Notes: generated from the sequence alone by a model not told the origin. Shown: positions 214 to 36,031, counted from the stretch's first letter. The stretch: 36,031 nt of DNA from a virus (IMGVR_UViG_3300042355_000652:1-36031), one strand, 5' to 3'. Made by a program: numbers and translations.

Positions 214-636
214 ATGCCCACCGCATTGCCCCCCGCAGCAGACTTTACCGGCGCCACCGTCACCGAAGGCCAATTCAAGACCGCGCTGACATCCTTGCGC
301 ACATTCCTGGCTGAACTGCTGGGCGCCGACGGCAGCGTTGCCACCGCGCTTGGCACGCTTGGTGCCGCAACGCCTGCGGAAATGCAAGGTTATGTCGCCG
401 AGGTTGACGCCGATCGCGTTGCGGCGCAGGCGGCTGCCGTCGCGGCACAAGCCGCATGGACGGCGGCACTCGCGGCCAACCCGGACCTTAACCCGTTCGG
501 GCGCATGAACCCCTCCACGCTGTCGGCGGATGTCACGCTGGCAGCCGGATACAACGCCGTCTCTGCCGGCCCCCTGACCATCGGCGAAGGGGTGGAAGTC
601 ACCCTGGCTGATACCTCCAACTGGACCATCGTTTAA
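214..636 (+). CDS. Small tail fibre-associated protein upstream of the DGR target
   Basis: A 140-residue protein. Its ATG follows an AAGGA ribosome site (201-205) and lies 2 bases after the J stop. Residues 1-60 are a helical, alanine-rich segment. Residues 61-95 are very alanine-rich and probably coiled-coil. The C-terminal ~43 residues (STLSADVTLAAGYNAVSAGP, then LTIGEGVEVTLADTSNWTIV) match a short beta-strand motif often seen at the ends of phage tail-fibre and fibre-connector proteins. It sits between J and the DGR target gene, 11 bases before the latter, so it may link the variable protein to the tail tip. That role is inferred from position. No enzymatic motif is visible. Confidence 0.6.
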   Translation: MPTALPPAADFTGATVTEGQFKTALTSLRTFLAELLGADGSVATALGTLGAATPAEMQGYVAEVDADRVAAQAAAVAAQAAWTAALAANPDLNPFGRMNPSTLSADVTLAAGYNAVSAGPLTIGEGVEVTLADTSNWTIV

Positions 637-647
637 GGAGCTTCATC

Positions 648-2000
648 ATGAGCAATCTCAACCTTCGCAGCGTCACCGGCATAGATGGCGGCCCGGTCAT
701 GTTCCCCTCCGGCATCAGTATCGGCGCCGGCGCCCCTGGCGGCGTGAATAACATCGGCACCGCCGGCGGCCAGGGCTTCGGCGTCGGCGTCTGCCCCGGC
801 CCGCTGCCGGCCGGCATGGGCGCGCTGTTCGGCTACAGCGATCCATCGTCGGACAACTACGGCAACTACCAGTACAGCGACGGCAGCGTCATGTGCTGGA
901 TTCCGGCTTTCTATTACAAATGGGGCACGGGCGCCAACGGAGTCACGCTTAACCAGGTGGTCATCAAGGCATTCAGCGAATATGCCGATGTGGCCACCGC
1001 CAATGCCGCCGGCTACGCCTTGCATCGGGCTTTCTATGATGGCGGCGCGGTGCAGCAGGGCGTGTTTGTCGACAAGTACCTGCCGAGCTATAACGGCGGC
1101 GTTGCCTCGTCGATCAAGAACGGCATCGTGCTTACCAGCGCCGCACGCGGCAGCCTGAGCAATGAAGTGTTCTCCGATCTGACCGGCGCGCCATCGGCCA
1201 CGTATGGCGGCGCCATCGCGGCCGCCAAGACGCGCGGCAGCGACTTCTTTTGCTCGTCACGCTTCATTTTCTCAGCGCTGGCCATGCTGGCTTACGCGCA
1301 CGGGCAGGCCAGCGTTGCCACCACCTATTGCGCCTGGTATCACGCCACCAACAACTTTCCGAAAGGCAACAACAACGACGCCCTGGGCGATGCGCAAGAC
1401 GCCACCATTGCCTACACCTATGACGGCAACGGGACCTACACCGGTGTCGGCAAGACCGGTTCAGCCAACATCTTTGCGCGCACCACCCATAACGGCCAGA
1501 ACAGCGGCGTGGCCGACCTCAATGGCCTGGTGTGGGAAATCACGCCGGGCCTGACCAGCAACGGCACGAACCTCTACATCCTCAAGACATCGGCCCGAAT
1601 GAAGGATGTCACCGGCAGCAACACGCTCGCCACCGACTTGTGGGGTGCTACCGGCATTGCGGCGCTGTATGACGACCTCGGCACCGCCTACGAGGTGTGG
1701 CGTGAAACCGGGGCGGATCGCTCGATCAGCTATGGTGCGGCGACTCAGGTATTCAGCGCATCGACCAGCGGCAATGGCTGGAATTGGGCCGGTGCTGGCG
1801 GAATGCTGACGACTGGCGATGGCGGGACCAATGCGTTTGGAAGCGATATTTTCTACGATTACAAGCCGAACGAAATGTGCCCGGTCTCGGGCGGCTACTG
1901 GACCTACTCGTCGTACGCCGGGGTGTGGGCGTTGAATCTCTTCGGTGTGCGGGCGGCCTCCTACCTCTACGTGGGGTTTCGCGCGGCCTTGTATCTCTGA
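648..2000 (+). CDS. DGR target protein: C-type-lectin-fold (FGE-sulfatase-like) receptor-binding protein
   Basis: A 450-residue protein with an AAGGAG ribosome site at 635-640. The N-terminal ~70 residues are glycine-rich. The rest looks like the formylglycine-generating-enzyme/C-type-lectin fold of DGR target proteins: RFIFSALAMLA, a tryptophan-containing AWYHATNN stretch, ADLNGLVWEITPGL, and a C-terminus ending VGFRAALYL. Residues 410-447 are encoded by the variable repeat (1875-1989). That segment aligns with the template at 2429-2543, with every difference at a template adenine. Fifteen of 17 adenine-containing codons differ, giving Tyr, Phe, Leu, Ala, Gly and Thr where the template has Asn. 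By analogy with BPP-1 Mtd, it is expected at the tail tip as a tunable receptor binder. The fold is inferred from pattern; target status rests on the repeat alignment. Confidence 0.92.
   Translation: MSNLNLRSVTGIDGGPVMFPSGISIGAGAPGGVNNIGTAGGQGFGVGVCPGPLPAGMGALFGYSDPSSDNYGNYQYSDGSVMCWIPAFYYKWGTGANGVTLNQVVIKAFSEYADVATANAAGYALHRAFYDGGAVQQGVFVDKYLPSYNGGVASSIKNGIVLTSAARGSLSNEVFSDLTGAPSATYGGAIAAAKTRGSDFFCSSRFIFSALAMLAYAHGQASVATTYCAWYHATNNFPKGNNNDALGDAQDATIAYTYDGNGTYTGVGKTGSANIFARTTHNGQNSGVADLNGLVWEITPGLTSNGTNLYILKTSARMKDVTGSNTLATDLWGATGIAALYDDLGTAYEVWRETGADRSISYGAATQVFSASTSGNGWNWAGAGGMLTTGDGGTNAFGSDIFYDYKPNEMCPVSGGYWTYSSYAGVWALNLFGVRAASYLYVGFRAALYL
1875..1989 (+). repeat. DGR variable repeat (VR)
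   Basis: This 115-bp segment covers the last codons of the target gene and aligns without gaps to 2429-2543 (offset 554). I compared the two copies base by base. All 87 non-adenine template positions are identical, and 19 of the 28 adenine positions differ (to G, T or C). The right end is a 16-bp adenine-free block identical in both copies (1971-1986). This is where the initiation-of-mutagenic-homing element lies in known DGRs. Homology stops 3 bases later. Confidence 0.96.
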
Positions 2001-2025
2001 GCCCTGAGCGATAGCGATGGGGCTC
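1999..2025 (+). other. Candidate hairpin just downstream of the VR
   Basis: GAGCCC at 1999-2004 is the exact reverse complement of GGGCTC at 2020-2025, leaving a 15-base loop. It begins about 10 bases after the end of VR homology and overlaps the target stop codon and the avd start. BPP-1 and some other DGRs need a DNA hairpin or cruciform just 3' of the VR for target recognition. The stem here is shorter and the loop larger than that example, so the assignment is tentative. Confidence 0.3.
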
Positions 2026-2427
2026 CATGACGAAGCCAAGCTGGACCGCAAATTCATGGAATTCGCGAAGCTGATGAACATTCATCTGAATCACTTTCCG
2101 AAACACGAAAAGTACGGCCTCGCGCTGGAAATCCGGCGCACGGCCTATGCGGTGTATGGCTTCATCGTGGAGGCGCAGAAGCGCTATCACAAGAAAACCG
2201 CGCTTTCCAGTCTCGATGTCGAACACGAGAAGCTGCGCATGCTGGTTCGCCTGGCGTTCGAGTTGGGCTACTTCGAGTTTAAGGATGGCAAGCGCGAGCA
2301 GAAATCCCCGGCAGCGGCAGGCGAGCATCGCTACCTCGCCTTGTCGCGGTTGGTGGATGAGTTGGGCAGGATGATCGGCGGCTGGATCGTCGTCGATCGG
2401 CAGTTAGCAACACGGGAGGCGTCTTAA
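2017..2427 (+). CDS. avd: DGR accessory variability determinant (Avd-like)
   Basis: A 136-residue, strongly helical and basic protein lying between the variable repeat and the template repeat. This is the same place as avd in the BPP-1 order target-avd-TR-RT. Four amphipathic helices are apparent (roughly residues 5-27, 34-58, 67-90 and 104-128). The last contains LSRLVDELGRMIGGWI, which resembles the conserved end of Avd proteins. In known DGRs, Avd forms a pentameric four-helix-bundle barrel that binds the reverse transcriptase and template RNA. The start ATG has no clear ribosome site and lies 17 bases after the target stop, so translational coupling is likely. The stop is 1 base before the template repeat. 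Confidence 0.88.
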   Translation: MGLHDEAKLDRKFMEFAKLMNIHLNHFPKHEKYGLALEIRRTAYAVYGFIVEAQKRYHKKTALSSLDVEHEKLRMLVRLAFELGYFEFKDGKREQKSPAAAGEHRYLALSRLVDELGRMIGGWIVVDRQLATREAS

Positions 2428-2428
2428 C

Positions 2429-2543
2429 ATGTGCCCGATCTCAGGCGGCAACTGGAACAACTCGTCGAACGCCGGGGTGTGGACGTTGAATCTCAACAAT
2501 GTGCGGACGAACTCCAACAACAACGTGGGGTTTCGCGCGGACT
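2429..2543 (+). repeat. DGR template repeat (TR)
   Basis: The invariant donor copy, located between avd and the reverse transcriptase gene. It contains 28 adenines in 115 bp. Read in the frame of the target gene, 11 codons are AAC or AAT, the codon type favoured in DGR templates because adenine mutation of AAY cannot create a stop. In this frame the repeat starts with ATG and encodes an Asn-rich peptide. An open frame continues to 2692. A GGGAGG sequence at 2414-2419 could even allow translation, but the function is presumably as RNA template. The 150 bp to the RT start probably belongs to the template RNA. Confidence 0.95.
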
Positions 2544-2693
2544 CGATTTCACCTCACGGGTCGGTTACAGGCCGCAGTGGAATCAAGGGAGACGCTTTCC
2601 GGCGCGCCGCGGTATCAGCAGTCGAGCGGCGGCGAAATCGGTGGGCTTCCACGATTCTGGTAGGCGCCATGTCGCGCTCGAAGGTCTCGTGAC

Positions 2694-3710
2694 ATGAAGC
2701 GCATCGGATTCTTGTACGAACAGGCATTTACGCCAGAGGCACTGCTGGCGGCGTTTCATATGGCCGCCAGACGCAAGCACGGCAAGCGGTCCTGCTTCAA
2801 CTTCGAAACGCGGCTAGGCAACAACCTGGACAGCTTGCACCGCGAACTGGCGGACGGCAGTTATCAGCCGCGCCCCTACTACAGCTTCATGGTCTATGAG
2901 CCGAAGCCGCGTCGCATCTACGCGCCAGCCTTCCGTGACCTGGTGGTGCAGCACGCCATCTACGCCGCGGCCGGGCCGATCTTCGAGCAGACCTTCATCG
3001 ATCAATCGTTCGCCTGTCGCATCGGACGTGGCACGCACAAGGCTGCCGACTACGCGCAGGCGGCACTGCAGGCCGTGCCGCGCGACAGCTACACACTGAA
3101 GCTTGATATTCGCAAGTTCTTCTACCGCATCGATCGGCCGATTCTGCGCAGGCTTATCGAAGCGAAGGTCAAGGACAGTCGCTTCGTTGATTTGATGATG
3201 CAGTTTGCCGACCACGGCGAGCCGGTTGGCATCCCCATCGGCAATCTGTTGAGCCAGCTTTACGCGCTGATCTACCTGAACCCGCTGGATCACTTCATCA
3301 AGCGCGAGCTTGGTATCCGGCACTACTGCCGCTACGTCGATGACTTCGTGCTGTTCGGCATCAGCCGCGACGAGGCGATCAGCTACCGCGAGCGGATCGT
3401 CATGTTCCTGACCGGTCTCAAGCTAGAGCTATCAAAATCGACCATCGCGCCCGTCTCGCGCGGCGTGAATTTTGTCGGCTACCGCACCTGGGCGAGCTGC
3501 CGCTTCGTTCGCCGGCACAGCCTTTACACCTTTCGCAGCGCCCTCAAGCGCGGCCGGATGGACAGCGCGGTATCCGTGCTTGGCCATGCGCGCCGCACCC
3601 ATTCCTTGCAGCACATGCTGCGCCATTTGAAGGAGCACCACCATGCCTACACTCATCAGCTACCGCAAGCATATCGACGCCCTGGTCACCCGCGAGCTGC
3701 GGCTGCCTGA
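2694..3710 (+). CDS. DGR reverse transcriptase
   Basis: A 338-residue group-II-intron-like reverse transcriptase of the DGR class. Visible motifs in order: YEPKPRRIYAP near residues 68-78; LKLDIRKFF at 135-143 (motif A, Asp138); IPIGNLLSQ at 180-188 (the DGR/retron-type motif B with SQ); YVDDF at 214-218 (catalytic Asp pair); and VNFVGYR at 258-264. It would copy the template-repeat RNA into adenine-mutagenised cDNA that replaces the variable repeat. The start follows a weak GAAGG site. The last 68 bases overlap the next gene, whose strong ribosome site lies inside this coding sequence. The domain is complete, with no frameshift or missing catalytic residue. Confidence 0.96.
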   Translation: MKRIGFLYEQAFTPEALLAAFHMAARRKHGKRSCFNFETRLGNNLDSLHRELADGSYQPRPYYSFMVYEPKPRRIYAPAFRDLVVQHAIYAAAGPIFEQTFIDQSFACRIGRGTHKAADYAQAALQAVPRDSYTLKLDIRKFFYRIDRPILRRLIEAKVKDSRFVDLMMQFADHGEPVGIPIGNLLSQLYALIYLNPLDHFIKRELGIRHYCRYVDDFVLFGISRDEAISYRERIVMFLTGLKLELSKSTIAPVSRGVNFVGYRTWASCRFVRRHSLYTFRSALKRGRMDSAVSVLGHARRTHSLQHMLRHLKEHHHAYTHQLPQAYRRPGHPRAAAA

Positions 3711-4059
3711 GGGCGATAATCACCAGCGCATCGGCACTGAGCTGGCCACCATCGACGGCACGACCTACGTCAGCCTGCCCGATGACGCCACCCTACCGGC
3801 TAGCCAGCCGGCAGAAATTGCGGCAAGCATCCAGACGGTTACGCTCACTGTTGCCTTGCGTGAGGCCATCAAGTCCGCCAGCCCGCAGGTGCGCGTGATC
3901 CACGCAATGGTGGCCGAGAAGATTGCCGAGCAGTACAGCCTGGCCGACGAGATCAAGCTGCTGCGCACGGCGCCAAGCGCGGAATTCGAAGCGTACAACT
4001 TGCACGCCGAGGCGTGCCGTGGCTGGGGGCGTGCGCAGAAGGCGGCACTCGGGTTGTGA
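3643..4059 (+). CDS. Hypothetical protein following the DGR
   Basis: A 138-residue protein of unknown function. The start is supported by AAGGAG at 3630-3635, seven bases before ATG, inside the reverse transcriptase gene. The N-terminal half is mixed and includes TELATIDGTTYVSLPDDATL. The C-terminal half (about 68-135) is helical, with RVIHAMVAEKIAEQYSLADE and an aromatic/basic end. The stop overlaps the next start in an ATGA arrangement, so it belongs to the same late transcript as the lysis genes. Proteins in this position near tail-fibre genes are sometimes fibre assembly or structural proteins, but no motif supports that here. Confidence 0.7.
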   Translation: MPTLISYRKHIDALVTRELRLPEGDNHQRIGTELATIDGTTYVSLPDDATLPASQPAEIAASIQTVTLTVALREAIKSASPQVRVIHAMVAEKIAEQYSLADEIKLLRTAPSAEFEAYNLHAEACRGWGRAQKAALGL

Positions 4060-6771: not shown

Positions 6772-8313
6772 TCAGGCCGCCTTCCGGCCCTGGGCTTGAA
6801 AAGACCGGATAACTCGTAATGCGGGGAATTGTGCGGATAGCCGTGGGGACGCCAAGAAATCCCCGGCTGCGAATTTTAGATGCAGCCGGGCGGTGAGCGC
6901 AGTCGGGCATAGCTCGATACGCTCCACCAGGCCGCCGATCAGCTCCTTGAGGGCTTCGCGGTCGACCGCCTGCAGGTTTTCTGCCAGCGCGGCCAGCATC
7001 GCCCGCACATCCTTTTCGCCTATCGCCCGAAAGACTTCGGCCGCCTGCTGCTGATCTTCCAGGCCCTGCAGCTCGCTGGCGATCTTCTCGCGCTGGCGCT
7101 CCAGTTCCTCGATCTTTTCCAGGAATGGCCGCGGCGCGGTCGATTCGCTCGCCAGCTCAGCCATGCGCCCGATCTTGACGGTGATCGCCGTCACCTGGCT
7201 GCGTAGCGGTTTCAGGCGCTCGTCGGGCGGCGGCGCGCTCATGCGGCGCGCTTCCTTGACCAGTTCGGCGACAAATACATCCGACACCATGTCGGCCTGC
7301 AGCATGCCGATCACGGCGGCCTCGATGGCTTCCTGGCTGACCCTGCGCCCCTTGCCGACCCGGTAGCTGCCGTCGCCGTCACCGTGCCATGGCTTGCCGT
7401 CTGGCGTCACCATCAAGCCGGAAAGCAGGTAGTCCGCCTTGGTGCGGTAGGTCTTGGCGCGGCCGGTGTCGAGGTGAGCCAGGATGGCCTCGGCCTGCTC
7501 GGTGCTGATCAGTTGGGCGTGGGTATCGTACTGGATCACCCAATCGGCCCGCGGCCGGCGCTTGGTGCCGCCCTTGTAGCCGCCACCGGGCAGGCGTTCG
7601 GTGTGGACGTTCCAGACAGTGTGCCCGGCATAAGTCAGCGCATTCCACTCCATGCCGATCAGGGACGAATCGCTGGCGGTCATTCCGGCCTCGCTGGATG
7701 CCTGCCGCCGGCTTACGCCGGCCGCACGGGCTTGCAGATAGACGCAGACCTTGTGCGCGTCATCCGACGGCACAAGGCGCGATTTGGTGACCGCCTCGCC
7801 TTCGCGCAGGGCGCCGGTGGCGATGTGCTCCAGCCGGTAGCCGGTCGGTGCCCTGCCGCCGGCGCGCCACCCTTGGCGCACGTTCTCCGCCATGCCGGCG
7901 ATCCCCTTTTCCCGACTCATCAGGCTGTGCAGCTCGTCGAAGCTCTGCATGACGGCGCGGATGACCACATCCATCACCGTGTTCGTTTCTGGCACTTTGG
8001 CATAGAGGATCTTGATGCCGCGCTTTTCGCACTCGTAGTGCAGGGCGTGCGCCAGGTACTGGTTGCGGGCAATGCGCGAGGTGTCGAGCGCAAGCAGGTG
8101 ATTCCAACGGCGATCCTTGTCCTTGATCTGCCGCAGTAGGGCCTGGAAGCCGGGGCGCTGGTCGTCCTTGCCGGATTCGACCGCGTCCTGGAAGGTTTCA
8201 ACGATCGAGAGGTTGCGGGCCTTGGCCAGTTCGATCAGCTCGCGGCGCTGTGCGTCCAGGCTGACGTCGTGCCGGTCCTTGCTTGATCTCAGGTAGATCG
8301 CTGCGCTGTCCAT
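6772..8313 (-). CDS. int: Large serine integrase (site-specific recombinase)
   Basis: A 513-residue protein. The N-terminal resolvase domain has YLRSSKDRHDVSLDAQ (catalytic Ser about residue 11) and ALDTSRIARNQ with the expected active-site arginines. It is followed by a recombinase domain (GRAPTGYRLEHIATG onward). A charged coiled-coil region follows (EKIEELERQREKIASELQ). The length is typical of large serine integrases that integrate phage DNA between attP and attB without high-energy cofactors. Unusually, the region after LLSGL, where the zinc ribbon normally has paired cysteines, reads MVTPDGKPWHGDGDGSYRVG and contains none. It is encoded leftward, away from the repressor, at the end of the early minus-strand cluster. 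No attP core could be identified. Confidence 0.93.
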   Translation of the reverse strand: MDSAAIYLRSSKDRHDVSLDAQRRELIELAKARNLSIVETFQDAVESGKDDQRPGFQALLRQIKDKDRRWNHLLALDTSRIARNQYLAHALHYECEKRGIKILYAKVPETNTVMDVVIRAVMQSFDELHSLMSREKGIAGMAENVRQGWRAGGRAPTGYRLEHIATGALREGEAVTKSRLVPSDDAHKVCVYLQARAAGVSRRQASSEAGMTASDSSLIGMEWNALTYAGHTVWNVHTERLPGGGYKGGTKRRPRADWVIQYDTHAQLISTEQAEAILAHLDTGRAKTYRTKADYLLSGLMVTPDGKPWHGDGDGSYRVGKGRRVSQEAIEAAVIGMLQADMVSDVFVAELVKEARRMSAPPPDERLKPLRSQVTAITVKIGRMAELASESTAPRPFLEKIEELERQREKIASELQGLEDQQQAAEVFRAIGEKDVRAMLAALAENLQAVDREALKELIGGLVERIELCPTALTARLHLKFAAGDFLASPRLSAQFPALRVIRSFQAQGRKAA

Positions 8314-16845: not shown

Positions 16846-17102
16846 CCAAAGCCGCTCGCGCCGCCATGCCGCTGGTCACCGCCTGGATCGACGACCTGCG
16901 CGGCGCCTTCGGCACGGACCTGATCGACGGTCTGATCCGCAAGGCCACCGTCGAGGGACTGCCAACGTTTTACGCCAGCGAGAACGGGCGCACCGTCGGC
17001 GTGCCGTTGCCGGCGCTGCGCGGGGTCGAGATCAGCGCGGCCGACATGGCTATCAACCCACCAAAAAAGGAATCCGATGCAGATCGAAACCGTCGCCATT
17101 GA
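16842..17102 (+). CDS. Hypothetical protein in packaging operon
   Basis: Eighty-six residues from ATG 16842, overlapping the previous stop. It begins MTKAARAAMPLVTAWIDDLR, continues with RKATVEGLPTFYASENGRTV and ends in a charged tail that overlaps the methyltransferase start by 26 bases. The composition is ordinary. Proteins of this size between small terminase and methyltransferase genes occur in related phages without known function. Confidence 0.6.
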   Translation: MTKAARAAMPLVTAWIDDLRGAFGTDLIDGLIRKATVEGLPTFYASENGRTVGVPLPALRGVEISAADMAINPPKKESDADRNRRH

Positions 17103-18447
17103 GCGGCTTATACCCTACGCCCGCAACAGCCGCACGCACAGCGAGGCGCAAGTGGCGCAGATCGCGGCCAGCATCCGCGAATTCGGCTTCACCAACCCGG
17201 TGCTGATCGACGCCGAGGGCGGCATCATCGCCGGCCATGGCCGGGTGATGGCCGCGCGCACCATTGGCTTGGCCGAGGTACCCTGCATCCGCCTGGGCTA
17301 TCTCACCGACACGCAGAAACGCGCCTACGTCATCGCCGACAACAAACTGGCGCTGAACGCCGGCTGGGATGAGGCGATGCTGGCGCTGGAATTCCGCGAC
17401 CTGATGGAGGCCGGATACGACGTCGGCCTGACCGGCTACGCGCTGCCAGAGATCGACGAGCTGGTGGCTGGGCTGGATGCTACGCCGAAAGGCAACACCG
17501 ACCCCGACGCCACGCCGCCGTTGCAAGCCGAGGCCATCACGCGCCCTGGCGACGTGTGGGGGCTTGGGCGGCATCGGCTCATGTGCGGCGACAGCACCGA
17601 CACAGGGGCGATGGCGATGTTGCTGGGGGGGGGTATGGCGGATGCTTGCTGGACAGACCCGCCCTACAACGTCGCGTATGGCGACAAAGCCGAGATGCTC
17701 AACAACTACGGCGGCAAGGGGCACAGAAACACGTCACGCATTCTCAACGACGACATGCCAGACGCCGACTTCAAAAAGTTTCTTGGAGGATTCTACCGGG
17801 CCGCGCATTCGGTGATGCGCCCTGGCGCGGCGATCTATGTCGCGCACGCGGAAACCGAGCGGACGAATTTTACGCAGCAGTTTTTATCGGCCGGTTTCAA
17901 ATTGTCGGGCGTCGTCATCTGGCGCAAGGACACCCTGGTGTTGGGGCGCTCGGATTACCAGTGGATCCACGAGCCGATCCTGTACGGATGGAAAGAGGGC
18001 GGCGCGCACAAGTTTTACGGCGGCCGGGCACAGACCACGGTCAACGATCTAGGGGCCAGCGGATCCCCGTTTGTTTTGCGGCCGGACGGGAAGTGGCAGA
18101 TAACCATCGGCGAGGAAACGATGATTGTTGCCGGCGACGCAAAGGTGGATTGGGTCGAGGACTCAATCATGCGTGAATTGAAGCCAAAGCGGAACGACAT
18201 CCACCCGACCATGAAGCCGGTGGCTTTGATTGAGCGTTTGCTGAAAAACTCAGCCCGACCAGGTCAGGTCGTGCTCGACCCGTTTGGCGGAAGCGGATCC
18301 ACAATGATCGCCGCAGAGCAGCTCGGAATGTCTGCGCGGCTGATGGAGCTGTCGCAAAACTACTGCGACGTGATCATCCGTCGCTGGCAGCAATTCACCG
18401 GAAAGACCGCCGTCCACGCCGTTACTGGCGCCGCCTTCCCCGGATAA
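17077..18447 (+). CDS. ParB-domain DNA methyltransferase (beta-class N6-adenine/N4-cytosine type)
   Basis: A 456-residue protein. The N-terminal ~95 residues are ParB/sulfiredoxin-like (LIPYARNSRTHSEAQVAQIA, then GIIAGHGRVMAA), a fusion often seen in phage methylases. The methyltransferase part has TDPPY (Asp194-Tyr197) and, near the C-terminus, DPFGGSGST (401-409), the SAM-binding motif. DPPY preceding the FxGxG motif indicates beta-class circular order. It may protect phage DNA from host restriction or mark it for packaging. A nine-G run at 17625-17633 encodes Leu-Gly-Gly-Gly only eight codons before DPPY. A one-base slip there would truncate the enzyme. The reading frame is intact here. 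Confidence 0.9.
   Translation: MQIETVAIERLIPYARNSRTHSEAQVAQIAASIREFGFTNPVLIDAEGGIIAGHGRVMAARTIGLAEVPCIRLGYLTDTQKRAYVIADNKLALNAGWDEAMLALEFRDLMEAGYDVGLTGYALPEIDELVAGLDATPKGNTDPDATPPLQAEAITRPGDVWGLGRHRLMCGDSTDTGAMAMLLGGGMADACWTDPPYNVAYGDKAEMLNNYGGKGHRNTSRILNDDMPDADFKKFLGGFYRAAHSVMRPGAAIYVAHAETERTNFTQQFLSAGFKLSGVVIWRKDTLVLGRSDYQWIHEPILYGWKEGGAHKFYGGRAQTTVNDLGASGSPFVLRPDGKWQITIGEETMIVAGDAKVDWVEDSIMRELKPKRNDIHPTMKPVALIERLLKNSARPGQVVLDPFGGSGSTMIAAEQLGMSARLMELSQNYCDVIIRRWQQFTGKTAVHAVTGAAFPG
17625..17633 (+). repeat. Nine-G homopolymer in the methyltransferase gene
   Basis: Codons CTG GGG GGG GGT span this run. In a GC-rich genome G runs of this length inside coding DNA are prone to slipped-strand mispairing. 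Located between the ParB-like and catalytic parts, slippage would switch the catalytic domain off. No population data are available here, so phase variation is only a possibility. Confidence 0.7.
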
Positions 18448-32342: not shown

Positions 32343-32728
32343 AGCATATCGAACCCAACCTGGGCGACCTGGTTTTTTCCGACTACGCCGCCGGTGGGCG
32401 TGGCGCGGGTAAATATGACTGCTTTGGGCTATTTGCCGAGGTCTGTCGGCGGCGCGGTGTTGCCGTGCCGGCGCACCCGACGCCGGATGATCTCGGCCTG
32501 CGTGAGGCGGCGATACTCGATGGTGCTGCGCACTGGGTGCCGCTGATCAAGCCCGAGCCGTGGTGCGGCGTCGCCTTTCGCATCGGCCCCTTTGTGGCGC
32601 ACATGGGCGTAGTGCTGGAAGACTGCGAGCAGTTCATTCACGCCGACCGCAAGATCGGCATCACCATCGATCGGCTCGACAGCCCGCGCTGGGCGCGGCG
32701 CATTGCGGGGTTTTACCGTGCGCCCTGA
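32339..32728 (+). CDS. Tail tip NlpC/P60-like peptidase (gpK-like)
   Basis: A 129-residue protein from ATG 32339. KYDCFGLFAEVCRRRG supplies the catalytic Cys of the NlpC/P60 family; the His is likely in VAHMGVVLED and the third residue in FIHADRK. NlpC/P60 enzymes cut peptidoglycan peptides. gpK acts in tail assembly or DNA injection. It lacks the N-terminal JAB1-like domain of lambda gpK, so it is the short version. It overlaps the J gene by 11 bases. Confidence 0.82.
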   Translation: MKHIEPNLGDLVFSDYAAGGRGAGKYDCFGLFAEVCRRRGVAVPAHPTPDDLGLREAAILDGAAHWVPLIKPEPWCGVAFRIGPFVAHMGVVLEDCEQFIHADRKIGITIDRLDSPRWARRIAGFYRAP

Positions 32729-35700
32729 TCAGGTAATCATCAACCCGCCGACAGCGCTGGACCCGGTGCGCCTGATCGTCGTGCGTAATCCGTTCGATCG
32801 GCGCGAGCGCGATGAGCGGCTGATCGCCGTGCCGTCAGCGCCGACTATCGAGGCGCTGGTCGGTGAATACCTGCCCGCTGGCACCAGTGACGGCGCCAGT
32901 AATGGCACTGAGTTGGTGGTGTCGGTCAATGGCGAAGTTGTGCCGCGCGACGCCTGGGCCAGCCGCACCATCACCGCCGGCGACCAGATGATAGCCATGC
33001 CGGTAGTGCATGGCGGCGACAACGGAATTCTCGGCGCCGTGCTGTCCGTGGCGTTGATGGTGGTGGCGCCAGGCATTGGCGCTGCCATTGCTTCGTCGAT
33101 GGGGCTTGGCGCCATTGCCACCATCGGCAGCTTTACGCTCACCTGGGGCACGGTGATCGGCGTTGGCGTCAGCATGCTCGGCTCGGCCCTGATCGGCTCG
33201 CTCACCGCGCCGGATCATCCGCAACTACCATCTGCCGCGCCCCTGCAGTCGTATGACGCCAGCCCGTCCTATTCCTGGCAGCCGGTCACCACGCAAGAGC
33301 CCGGCGGCGTCGTGGCCCGCGCCTATGGCCGCGTCAAGCTGCATGGCAACATCATTGCCGGCTATATCGAAAACACCGGCGACACCGGAGCCAAGCAGGT
33401 GGCGCATGTGCTGATCGACCTTGGCCTTGGCCCTTATGCGGCGCTGACTGATTTCAAAATCAACGACCAGGCGCTGGCCAACTATGCCGGGGTAACCTTG
33501 ATCGAGCGGCTTGGCGAACTGGATCAGGAGCTCATCCCCGACTTTTCCGATACGCGCCTGACGCGCCAGATCGGCGCCAAAGTCGTCAAGGACTCCCCTG
33601 TAACCAGAGCCACGGTCGGAAACGATTACGACGCCCTTGATGTCGTGGTGGTATTCCCCCAGGGCCTGTTTTACGCAAACGACTCGGGCGGCCTGTCAAC
33701 GCATACCGTGGATTTCACCATCGAGGTGTCCGTGGATGGCGGCCGGACATGGTATCAGGCGGCCACGCGCGTTTATGAAACCACGACACTCACCAGTGCA
33801 GGCGTCTGGACTCTCGGCCGATGGGCCGCCGATCGCCCGGATGTCTGGATTGAGCGTGAGCGCGGCAGCACCGTGCGCACCGATCACACCGAAGGCGAGC
33901 TGCAATACAACGACTTTTTCGGGCAGTACCACCTGTGGCACTGGGTAACCGGAACCATCACGCTGCGCGTCAATGCGCTGGTTGGCTGGACCGTTTCTGC
34001 CGCCAGCCAGCAACCGATCCGCAAGACCCTCAACATCCCCCGCCTGCGGCGCGGCACCACGTATCAGGTGCGCGTCACCAACCTTACCACCGACCAGACC
34101 AGCAACCGCTACGGCGACGACATGTATCTCGCCGAAATCAACGAGATCCTCTACGACGATTTCCAGTACCCACGCACCGCGCTGGTTGGCATCAAGGCGC
34201 TGGCCACCGATCAGCTTTCGGGCGGCATCCAGTTCTCCTGCCTGGCGGATACCGCCATCGTCCGCGTCTGGAACGGCACGGCTTGGTCGGCCAGCTTTAG
34301 CCGCAACCCGGCATGGATCTGCTGGGACATCCTGACGCAGCCGGTGTTCGACAACAACCACGCCGTGGTGCGCTACGACGGGCTGGACCCCTCGCGCCTT
34401 AATCTTTCCGCCTTTTACGCCTGGGCGCAGTGGTGCGATGCCGACGTGCCTGGCCCGGCCGGCATGGAGCCCCGCTGCCAGTTCGACGGCATCTTCGACA
34501 CGCCAACGTCGGCCTGGGAAGCCGCGCTTGAGGTTGCCGCCAGTGCCCGCGCCACGGTATTGATGCGCGGCACCACCGTCACCGTGGTATGGGATCGCGC
34601 CCGCACTCTGCCGGCGCAGGTATTCAGCGTTGGCAATACGCTGGCCGACTCTTTCAAGGAAACCTTCCTGCCGATGCAGGACCGCGCTGGCGCCATCGAA
34701 GTCGAATTCATGAACGCCGCCGACGATCACGTGCGCGACAAGATCGTCGTCGTCAATTCCGGTGTGGTCGAGGCCGCTGCAGAGCGTGTGCAGTTTTCCA
34801 ATCGCGGCATCCGCCGCGCCTCGCAAGCCTGGCGCGAAGCCATGTTCCGCCTGAAGCGCAACGAGCTGCTGCGCCGCACGGCAGAAATCAGCGTGGAAAT
34901 CGACGCCCTGGCCTGTGAAGTCGGCGACATGATCTACGTGCAGGATGATGTCGCGCGCTGGGGTGAAGGCGGGCGCATCATCAGCGGCACCACCACCACG
35001 CTGGCGCTGGACAAAGAGGTCGCGCTGGTGGGCGGCACCGCCTATACCGTCACGCTGCGCATGGCCGACGACACCATCGCCACGCGCTCGATCACCACAC
35101 CGCCCGGCACCGTCAGCAGCATCACCGTCAGCAGCGCATTCCCGGCCACGCCAGCAGCGCATGACGTGTGGGCCATTGCCACCACGGACCGCACCATCAA
35201 GCCATTTATTGTGATCGCCGTCAGCCGCGATGGCGACCAGCGCGCCACGCTCTCGCTGATCGAATACAACGCCAGCCTGTACGGCATCGACGCTGGCGCG
35301 GCCACTATCCCCACCGCTGATGTCTCCTGGCGACCGGCGGCTACGGTATCGGGCCTGACGCTGCGTGAAGGCATGTTCCGCGCCGCGGACGGCGCCATTG
35401 TGGTGTACATCGACGTGCATTTCGACAAATCGGCCGATTGCCGGGCGGGCCGCGTCAGCGTCGCCGGCTGGGCCGATGAAGACGCAACGGCCGGGTATCG
35501 GCGCCTGATCGGCGCAGTATCCGGCGAGACCTACACCGTACAGGTGGCACCAGTCGACCACCTGGGCCGGCTTGCTGCGCCCGCTACATGGCAGACCGCC
35601 AGCATTGCCGTGGTGGGCAAGCTCGCACCGCCGGCCGATGTGCCCTGGTTCTCAATCGAAGGCACAACCGTATCATGGGGCGCCGTATCCGATGTGGACG

Positions 35701-36031
35701 TGGCTGGCTACCGCCTGCGCTGGATACCAGGAACCTCGACCGACTGGGGGCAGGCACAGCCGCTGCACGAAGGCTTGGTGACCGAATCACCCTGGGGGCT
35801 GCGGATCACGCCATCAGGCGAGGCCACGCTGCTGATAAAGGCGGTCGACACCTCAGGCAACGAATCACTGGAGCCCGCTGCGATCGCGGTCAATCTTGGC
35901 GATCCGGTGGTCGCCAACATCATCGCCACGGAAGACCTGTACGCCAATGGCTTTCCCGGCCTGATCGCCGGCGCGTCGATCTCCGGCGGCGATCTGCTGG
36001 CCGACAGCACAGCGTCGATCTGGAATCCAAA
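32718..36031 (+). CDS. Tail tip (host specificity) protein J-like, N-terminal part, runs off window
   Basis: The reading frame starts at GTG 32718, overlapping the gpK-like gene by 11 bases, and stays open to the right edge (1104 codons visible). Early hydrophobic segments (ILGAVLSVALMVVAPGIGAA and neighbouring) are typical of the I-like/J N-terminus. The body contains conserved J features (RAYGRVKLHGNIIAGYIENT, EVSVDGGRTWYQAA, NPAWICWDILTQPVFDNN). Late fibronectin-like domains follow (VSWRPAATVSGLTLREGMFR, then DVDVAGYRLRWIPGTSTDWG). J forms the tail tip fibre and binds the receptor; its C-terminus is at bases 1-211 if the ends belong to the same gene. Confidence 0.9.
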   Translation, partial: MRPDQVIINPPTALDPVRLIVVRNPFDRRERDERLIAVPSAPTIEALVGEYLPAGTSDGASNGTELVVSVNGEVVPRDAWASRTITAGDQMIAMPVVHGGDNGILGAVLSVALMVVAPGIGAAIASSMGLGAIATIGSFTLTWGTVIGVGVSMLGSALIGSLTAPDHPQLPSAAPLQSYDASPSYSWQPVTTQEPGGVVARAYGRVKLHGNIIAGYIENTGDTGAKQVAHVLIDLGLGPYAALTDFKINDQALANYAGVTLIERLGELDQELIPDFSDTRLTRQIGAKVVKDSPVTRATVGNDYDALDVVVVFPQGLFYANDSGGLSTHTVDFTIEVSVDGGRTWYQAATRVYETTTLTSAGVWTLGRWAADRPDVWIERERGSTVRTDHTEGELQYNDFFGQYHLWHWVTGTITLRVNALVGWTVSAASQQPIRKTLNIPRLRRGTTYQVRVTNLTTDQTSNRYGDDMYLAEINEILYDDFQYPRTALVGIKALATDQLSGGIQFSCLADTAIVRVWNGTAWSASFSRNPAWICWDILTQPVFDNNHAVVRYDGLDPSRLNLSAFYAWAQWCDADVPGPAGMEPRCQFDGIFDTPTSAWEAALEVAASARATVLMRGTTVTVVWDRARTLPAQVFSVGNTLADSFKETFLPMQDRAGAIEVEFMNAADDHVRDKIVVVNSGVVEAAAERVQFSNRGIRRASQAWREAMFRLKRNELLRRTAEISVEIDALACEVGDMIYVQDDVARWGEGGRIISGTTTTLALDKEVALVGGTAYTVTLRMADDTIATRSITTPPGTVSSITVSSAFPATPAAHDVWAIATTDRTIKPFIVIAVSRDGDQRATLSLIEYNASLYGIDAGAATIPTADVSWRPAATVSGLTLREGMFRAADGAIVVYIDVHFDKSADCRAGRVSVAGWADEDATAGYRRLIGAVSGETYTVQVAPVDHLGRLAAPATWQTASIAVVGKLAPPADVPWFSIEGTTVSWGAVSDVDVAGYRLRWIPGTSTDWGQAQPLHEGLVTESPWGLRITPSGEATLLIKAVDTSGNESLEPAAIAVNLGDPVVANIIATEDLYANGFPGLIAGASISGGDLLADSTASIWNP

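Follow-up and report, generated by a model that had tools for sequence, protein, structure and literature searches.

Does the virus recorded as IMGVR_UViG_3300042355_000652:1-36031 carry a complete diversity-generating retroelement (DGR), is that element still at work, and which of the neighboring genes belong with it? The window, i.e., the whole stretch of DNA that was analyzed, is 36,031 bases long, and the repeats, the genes and the relatives of the element are considered below in turn.

The repeat pair and the DGR genes

The following features, all found on the same strand, make up the element:

648..2000, +, DGR target, a 450-aa tail protein, presumed to be receptor-binding (PHROG tail/unknown families, structural model, Foldseek)
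1875..1989, +, variable repeat (VR), 87 of 87 non-A positions the same as in the template
1971..1987, +, IMH-like adenine-free 3' end of the VR, GTGGGGTTTCGCGCGG, whose last base is the C of the fixed C/A mismatch 1987/2541
1999..2025, +, hairpin behind the VR, GAGCCC...GC(GATA)GC...GGGCTC, with a loop of the GRNA type; it overlaps both the stop of the target and the start of avd
2017..2427, +, avd (accessory variability determinant), 136 aa (Pfam PF22296 bAvd, E 2.2e-16; phrog_3206, E 1.2e-23)
2429..2543, +, template repeat (TR), with AAC-rich codons in the target frame
2544..2693, +, TR–RT spacer RNA with a conserved, covarying secondary structure (42-locus alignment, covariance model)
2694..3710, +, DGR reverse transcriptase (RT), 338 aa (RVT_1, E 3e-16; PHROG 1423 RT, E 6e-102)

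A repeat search of the first 5 kb revealed 1875-1989 and 2429-2543 (115 nt, 83%) as the sole long repeat. When the two copies were compared base by base without gaps, all of the 87 non-adenine template positions proved identical, and 19 of the 28 template adenines were changed in the VR (eight to T, seven to G and four to C), exactly as counted by hand in the preliminary description. The same description had named many non-adenine VR–TR differences as grounds for abandoning the element, and the computed alignment gave 0 of 87. One of the 19 changes requires a different reading: TR position 2541 is A, VR position 1987 is C, and the same A/C mismatch is present in 80 of the 80 readable loci. Being fixed, it marks the IMH/IMH* boundary rather than mutagenesis, so that the mutagenic count is 18 of the 27 informative adenines. 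The earlier reading of 19/28 as a mutagenic signature is therefore right in that the differences lie on adenines only, and too high by this one position.

The TR is open in the target frame over 87 codons, as might be expected if the repeat were a plain gene duplicate whose copies had diverged under selection. However, all 19 differences fall on TR adenines (hypergeometric p = 2.8e-15 for chance placement), and the same A-only asymmetry is repeated in about 90 loci. With no non-adenine differences between VR and TR, a duplication is refuted, and its probability is considered negligible. The VR is in frame with the target, whose stop codon ends 11 nt beyond it; the changed adenines are located mostly within AAC codons of that frame, so that stops are avoided. 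A search of both strands of the whole window found no second VR for this TR, the next best candidate agreeing at 44 of the 87 non-A positions.

The hairpin directly behind the VR has a GAGCCC/GGGCTC stem with an inner GC-GATA-GC and an internal mismatch, because of which the stem is not a perfect one of 7–10 bp. A GRNA loop is the rule for the hairpin of BPP-1-like DGRs (PMC3240598), and similar hairpins with GRNA-type loops are located behind the VR in many relatives. Both parts of the BPP-1-type arrangement, an IMH and a GC-rich GRNA-loop hairpin behind the VR, are present in this phage.

The RT has a YVDD active site and the motif IGNLLSQ, as read from the translation. Its nearest solved structure is 8ub7 (E 2e-51), which ranks well above the group II intron RTs, and BPP-1 Brt is 40% identical to the RT of this phage; by its sequence, the RT is a member of the DGR clade. 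The gene order target-Avd-TR-RT is that of BPP-1. Target, VR, Avd, TR and RT, the set claimed in the preliminary description, were thus all recovered by repeat, Pfam and PHROG searches, and we are highly confident that this phage carries a complete BPP-1-type DGR.

An AF2 model of the target based on 30 relatives (pTM 0.84; pLDDT 77.6, which limits its reading to the fold level) gave a C-type-lectin-like fold for the C-terminal variable domain. The best Foldseek hit of the model was TaqVP (5vf4; E 8e-11), the variable protein of a DGR in Thermus aquaticus; weaker hits were Mtd (1yu0/1yu3), PvdO and formylglycine-generating enzyme (FGE), all of them weak matches. A profile search with the target also matched 5vf4 (E 5e-7). 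The target is thus modelled as a DGR variable protein with TaqVP as the nearest, and it is presumed to bind the host receptor.

Activity, spacer RNA and tail context

Relatives of the RT were found in 292 IMG/VR stretches and in 36 loci of prokaryote genomes, the closer ones coming from Proteobacteria where a host is named. The preliminary description implied a rarity that finds no support: there are these hundreds of relatives, and GenBank already contains a phage in which target, Avd and RT follow a tail tip gene in the same order (vB-Vv-ZX4290). About 90 loci contain a TR/VR pair with differences at adenines only, or nearly so, and with near-constant spacing. The comparison of relatives' VRs against a fixed TR, which had been suggested as a check, turned up identical DGR cassettes with VRs that differ at adenines. 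Some contigs fall into groups with an identical avd-TR-RT block and as much as 600 nt of identical target sequence before it; within such groups, the VR differs at up to 21 adenines. Pairs of relatives sharing 5–9 kb show 7–20 adenine differences in the VR and 0–1 at other VR sites, with 0–17 differences in all of the remaining sequence. Such a pattern gives direct evidence that mutagenic homing took place recently in the clade to which the phage belongs.

This exact phage is represented by one sequence, and the polymorphism was compared among its relatives. The earlier argument that a VR already diversified from its template means an active system holds for the past of this genome; recent activity is seen in relatives, which have identical DGR cassettes and different VRs. 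That the activity is seen in relatives of a genome known from a single sequence, and that the core has been lost repeatedly among them, would agree with a silent relic, diversified once and inactive now. Against this, the element is intact in its RT, Avd, TR, spacer RNA, IMH and hairpin, no non-A differences between VR and TR have accumulated, and the nearest relative, L002, differs at one position of the TR and at 19 adenines of the VR. A relic is thus very improbable, and the DGR of this genome is genuine, intact and probably active.

The spacer between TR and RT is 150 nt long, and the first helix of its RNA extends back into the last bases of the TR. In the alignment of 42 loci, eight helices were found, with double-sided changes in 22 of the 34 pairs. 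The covariation was 0.475, compared with 0.162 in shuffled alignments (0 of 500 as high) and 0.06–0.09 in slid controls; since the structure was derived from the same 42-locus alignment and the shuffles do not keep relatedness, the argument is the effect size and not the shuffle count. A covariance model of the first part of the spacer matched directly behind the TR in Pseudomonas phage Bise and in most of a wider, more distant set; it was weak in some Campylobacterota and did not detect BPP-1. The spacer of BPP-1 serves to recruit RT-Avd and to prime cDNA synthesis (PMC12875486), and by analogy we infer that the spacer RNA would do the same here. That the TR-spacer frame (2429-2692) might code for a protein was considered and rejected: this frame is not open from the TR start in many relatives and the RNA pairs are conserved, which favors RNA over protein.

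Outside the element, three features describe its tail and lysis context:

32703..36031 and on to 1-211 across the record ends, +, J-like central tail fiber/tip attachment protein (phrog_31 central tail fiber J, E 7e-147; GpJ FNIII Pfam)
214..636, +, 140-aa tail protein with a C-terminal motif of about 45 aa
5130-5861, endolysin-like gene (weak match, E 4e-6)

The J-like frame that begins at 32703 leaves the right end of the record and, resumed at base 1, reaches its stop at 209-211, three bases upstream of the next gene. At residues 1116-1179, this J matches L005-L007 at 55%, in sequence that directly follows the remainder of J in those loci. No end repeat is present in the 36,031-base record. 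The closing of the J frame across the ends and the match to L005-L007 therefore suggest that the record is most likely a complete, circularly permuted genome. Lambda-type TerL, portal, a fused protease/head protein, tape measure and J, together with serine integrase and repressor genes, identify the phage by gene content as a temperate lambda-like siphovirus, and no sheath or baseplate families were found among the phage proteins scanned. The earlier description of a lambda-like, J-containing siphovirus is thus borne out by the portal, TerL, tape measure and J. Of the lysis genes said to adjoin the DGR, one endolysin-like gene does lie nearby, with a weak match. A tRNA search found none, and an Rfam search gave no match at either threshold.

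The gene order is J (to 211), the 140-aa protein and the target, which agrees with the suggestion in the preliminary description that tail-tip diversification may act together with J. Many related targets are preceded by a protein with the same C-terminal motif as the 140-aa protein; this is usually so where the target shares the N-terminus of this phage's target. That the motif serves in docking is a guess. Local tblastn of the relatives' flanks, which assigned a tail type in a minority of them, revealed J-type genes in L005-L007, L049, L051 and L071, and sheath/baseplate genes in L037, L043, L098 and L101. Thus, the target module sits in different tails, contractile ones included.

dn138 and the avd-TR-RT core among relatives

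One more gene adjoins the element:

3643..4059, +, dn138, an undescribed 138-aa protein; overlaps the RT end and lies directly 3' of RT in more than 100 loci

By strict criteria, dn138 was found behind the RT in 100 loci, and in further ones whose layout departs slightly, with a conservation of 34–86% identity. It has no family in Pfam or PHROG, no match in 50,697 phage records and no counterpart in the PDB below E 0.001; one unnamed viral protein (A0A516LIE3; E 5e-5) is similar. The AF2 model of dn138 (pLDDT 95.8) has a small beta domain and a helical domain. Comparison with tail assembly chaperones gave no convincing fold or family match (PHROG E 0.009 in 2 of 49 members), and a literature search for a DGR-linked chaperone found nothing relevant. 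No homologues of dn138 were present in the DGR stretches of BPP-1, ACA1, VP58.5, ZX4290, YPCBV-1 and Magia. Among 369 genomes of the class of L082, dn138 occurs at one true DGR locus, with one further weak match at a contig end. In Campylobacterota, another protein, partly of PHROG families of unknown function, is found in its place.

The same search of DGR stretches gave a partial match to dn138 in L110 only.

A search with the target revealed ten loci that keep target and dn138 side by side in the absence of a working avd-TR-RT, i.e., this linkage persists independently of the DGR. The last 36–85 codons of the RT are retained in L150, L166, L175 and L141, the middle of the latter being replaced by an inserted segment with an antisense frame; a shorter RT piece with a stop is retained in L182, and the hairpin persists in L150, L166 and L182. 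Between target and dn138 of L155, L169/L172, L193 and L198, no trace of DGR remnants was found. Some of the core-less contigs are fragments, so that another part of the same virus may carry an RT. The target tree has 84 rows; core absence requires at least eight changes on it, and a single clade of DGR-less rows is rejected (p 8e-37).

The loci with no remnant would fit DGR-less target-dn138 pairs that are ancestral, the core having been inserted between them many times. However, RT pieces, avd starts or the hairpin remain among L141, L150, L166, L175 and L182, the DGR-less rows are interspersed with DGR-bearing ones (L169/L172 is sister to L023, and L193 to L095), and 75 of the 84 rows carry the core, all of which makes repeated insertion improbable. 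On a slight balance of probability, the gene content of these loci points to avd-TR-RT as a discardable mutator within a two-gene receptor module.

The place of dn138 in such a module depends on whether it belongs with the target or with the mutator. That dn138 stays with the target when avd-TR-RT is lost suggests that it probably goes with the target. An accessory factor of the DGR, acting, e.g., in cDNA integration, would be in line with the overlap of dn138 with the RT gene and its position next to RT in more than 100 loci, as well as with its divergence, which, in a co-evolution test meant to link it with the target, followed the RT better (partial r of pairwise distances, 0.46 for the RT vs. 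0.16 for the target). Such tracking of the RT would be predicted by linkage alone or by a DGR role, and physical linkage could explain it. Unrelated small genes are also found behind the RT elsewhere, namely ACA1 gp45 and VP58.5 gp21 (PMC10612066). On the other hand, dn138 is still beside the target in the ten loci with no working RT, Bise and some other full DGRs lack dn138, and BPP-1 retrohoming has been rebuilt in E. coli from avd-TR-brt and a target (PMC12875486). An accessory factor is thus rather unlikely, and we consider it reasonably likely, judging from gene neighborhoods, that dn138 is the assembly partner of the target and not a part of the mutator.

Taken as a whole, the unit may consist of a lectin-tipped receptor-binding protein and its dedicated partner dn138, with a removable mutator between them that is repeatedly discarded, which would freeze specificity; we hold this reading to be somewhat more probable than its negation.

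Proposed mechanism and known systems

Each homing step in this phage is inferred by homology to BPP-1. The 150-nt spacer of the TR transcript would fold into the conserved structure and recruit RT and Avd; the RT would copy the TR into cDNA with errors opposite adenines, and the cDNA would replace the VR, with the IMH and the GRNA hairpin directly behind the VR as guides. Because AAC makes up most of the changed codons, some twelve residues in the lectin-like tip of the tail receptor-binding protein would vary without stops. The target would be assembled with the help of its partner dn138, and the two stay side by side where avd-TR-RT is gone.

The element is of a known kind: DGRs of phage tail receptors are well known, so that it adds by itself one clear example. 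What is new is the occurrence of dn138 behind the RT in more than 100 loci and the absence of the core from loci that keep target and dn138, for which the target tree requires eight changes or more. The loci form a large comparable set for asking how often phages drop targeted hypermutation yet keep the receptor protein, and in which the function of dn138 and the spacer RNA pairs needed by RT-Avd outside BPP-1 can be tested. The core-less target-dn138 pairs offer natural controls against which the costs and benefits of a DGR can be weighed.

In the parts of the 2021 catalogue of Roux et al. that were consulted, viral DGRs are described on tail receptor proteins with a C-terminal C-type-lectin VR, as in this phage, and as broadly active (PMC8144416). 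The words accessory, chaperone and Avd occur nowhere in its main text, and repeated core loss with target retention was not found in the parts consulted (PMC8144416).

The DGR of Bordetella phage BPP-1 (mtd-avd-TR-brt) is similar in gene order, Avd, RT, IMH, GRNA hairpin and spacer length (144 nt, compared with 150 nt here). BPP-1 is a short-tailed phage. It differs in that the target of our phage resembles Mtd weakly (Foldseek E 0.1), the spacer RNA model of this clade has no BPP-1 match, and the BPP-1 stretch searched holds no dn138 homologue. Pseudomonas phage Bise has the closest RT in the 50,697 phage records (59.5%), an Avd and a match to the same spacer RNA model (40 bits), whereas its tail is contractile, its target is 29% similar over the C-terminal half only, and dn138 is absent. 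In Vibrio phage vB-Vv-ZX4290, the RT is 39% identical and there is no dn138 homologue, but the tail tip gene is likewise followed by target, Avd and RT. The P2-like Pseudoalteromonas phages ACA1/ACA2 have a contractile tail, and their gp45 (phrog_5714) is unrelated to dn138; nevertheless, as in the phage described here, their DGR acts on a separate antireceptor polypeptide, was acquired as a module, and is followed by a small gene of unknown function behind the RT (PMC10612066).

Motifs and domains around the target gene

A C-terminal motif of about 45 aa (GYNAxSxGPLTIGEGVxVTLxDxSxW) was detected in the protein encoded at 214–636 of the window, as well as in the products of genes located just upstream of many related targets of the diversity-generating retroelement (DGR). 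The proteins that share this motif otherwise differ, and it is possible that it represents a docking site for the N-terminus of the target. Behind the variable repeat (VR), the sequence GAGC-GATA-GCGA lies in the hairpin at 1999–2025, where tandem G-A mismatches could form between the inner and outer stem; this same pattern was found again in several relatives.

In locus L122 (3715–3918), the C-terminal domain of the 138-aa protein dn138, the inferred partner of the target, is present a second time, behind the full gene. In the dn138 relatives of L034, L036, L029 and L123, the N-terminal domain is kept and the helical C-terminal domain is different, as if it had been exchanged.

State of the DGR core in relatives

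In L141 (6000–6600; the same contig as L119, 2315–2960), Avd is truncated after residue 58, and the template repeat (TR) and most of the reverse transcriptase (RT) have given way to a segment carrying a long antisense frame; the target, VR and dn138 are all intact. In L081 and L197, RT lies almost directly 3' of the target, and no avd, TR or dn138 was found, possibly another state of decay.

Two contigs that were placed in different Campylobacterota genera (Aliarcobacter and Sulfurimonas), L103 and L106, have an avd-TR-RT block that is 99.6% identical. Their VRs differ at 17 of 23 adenines, and 33 differences in 600 positions were counted upstream. This likeness would reflect either a recent transfer or one phage binned into two genomes.

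Other genes of the window

17077–18447, fusion of a ParB-like domain and a DNA methyltransferase, immediately preceding the large terminase
6772–8313 (−), integrase, a large serine recombinase of resolvase type

Lambda, in contrast, has a tyrosine integrase.
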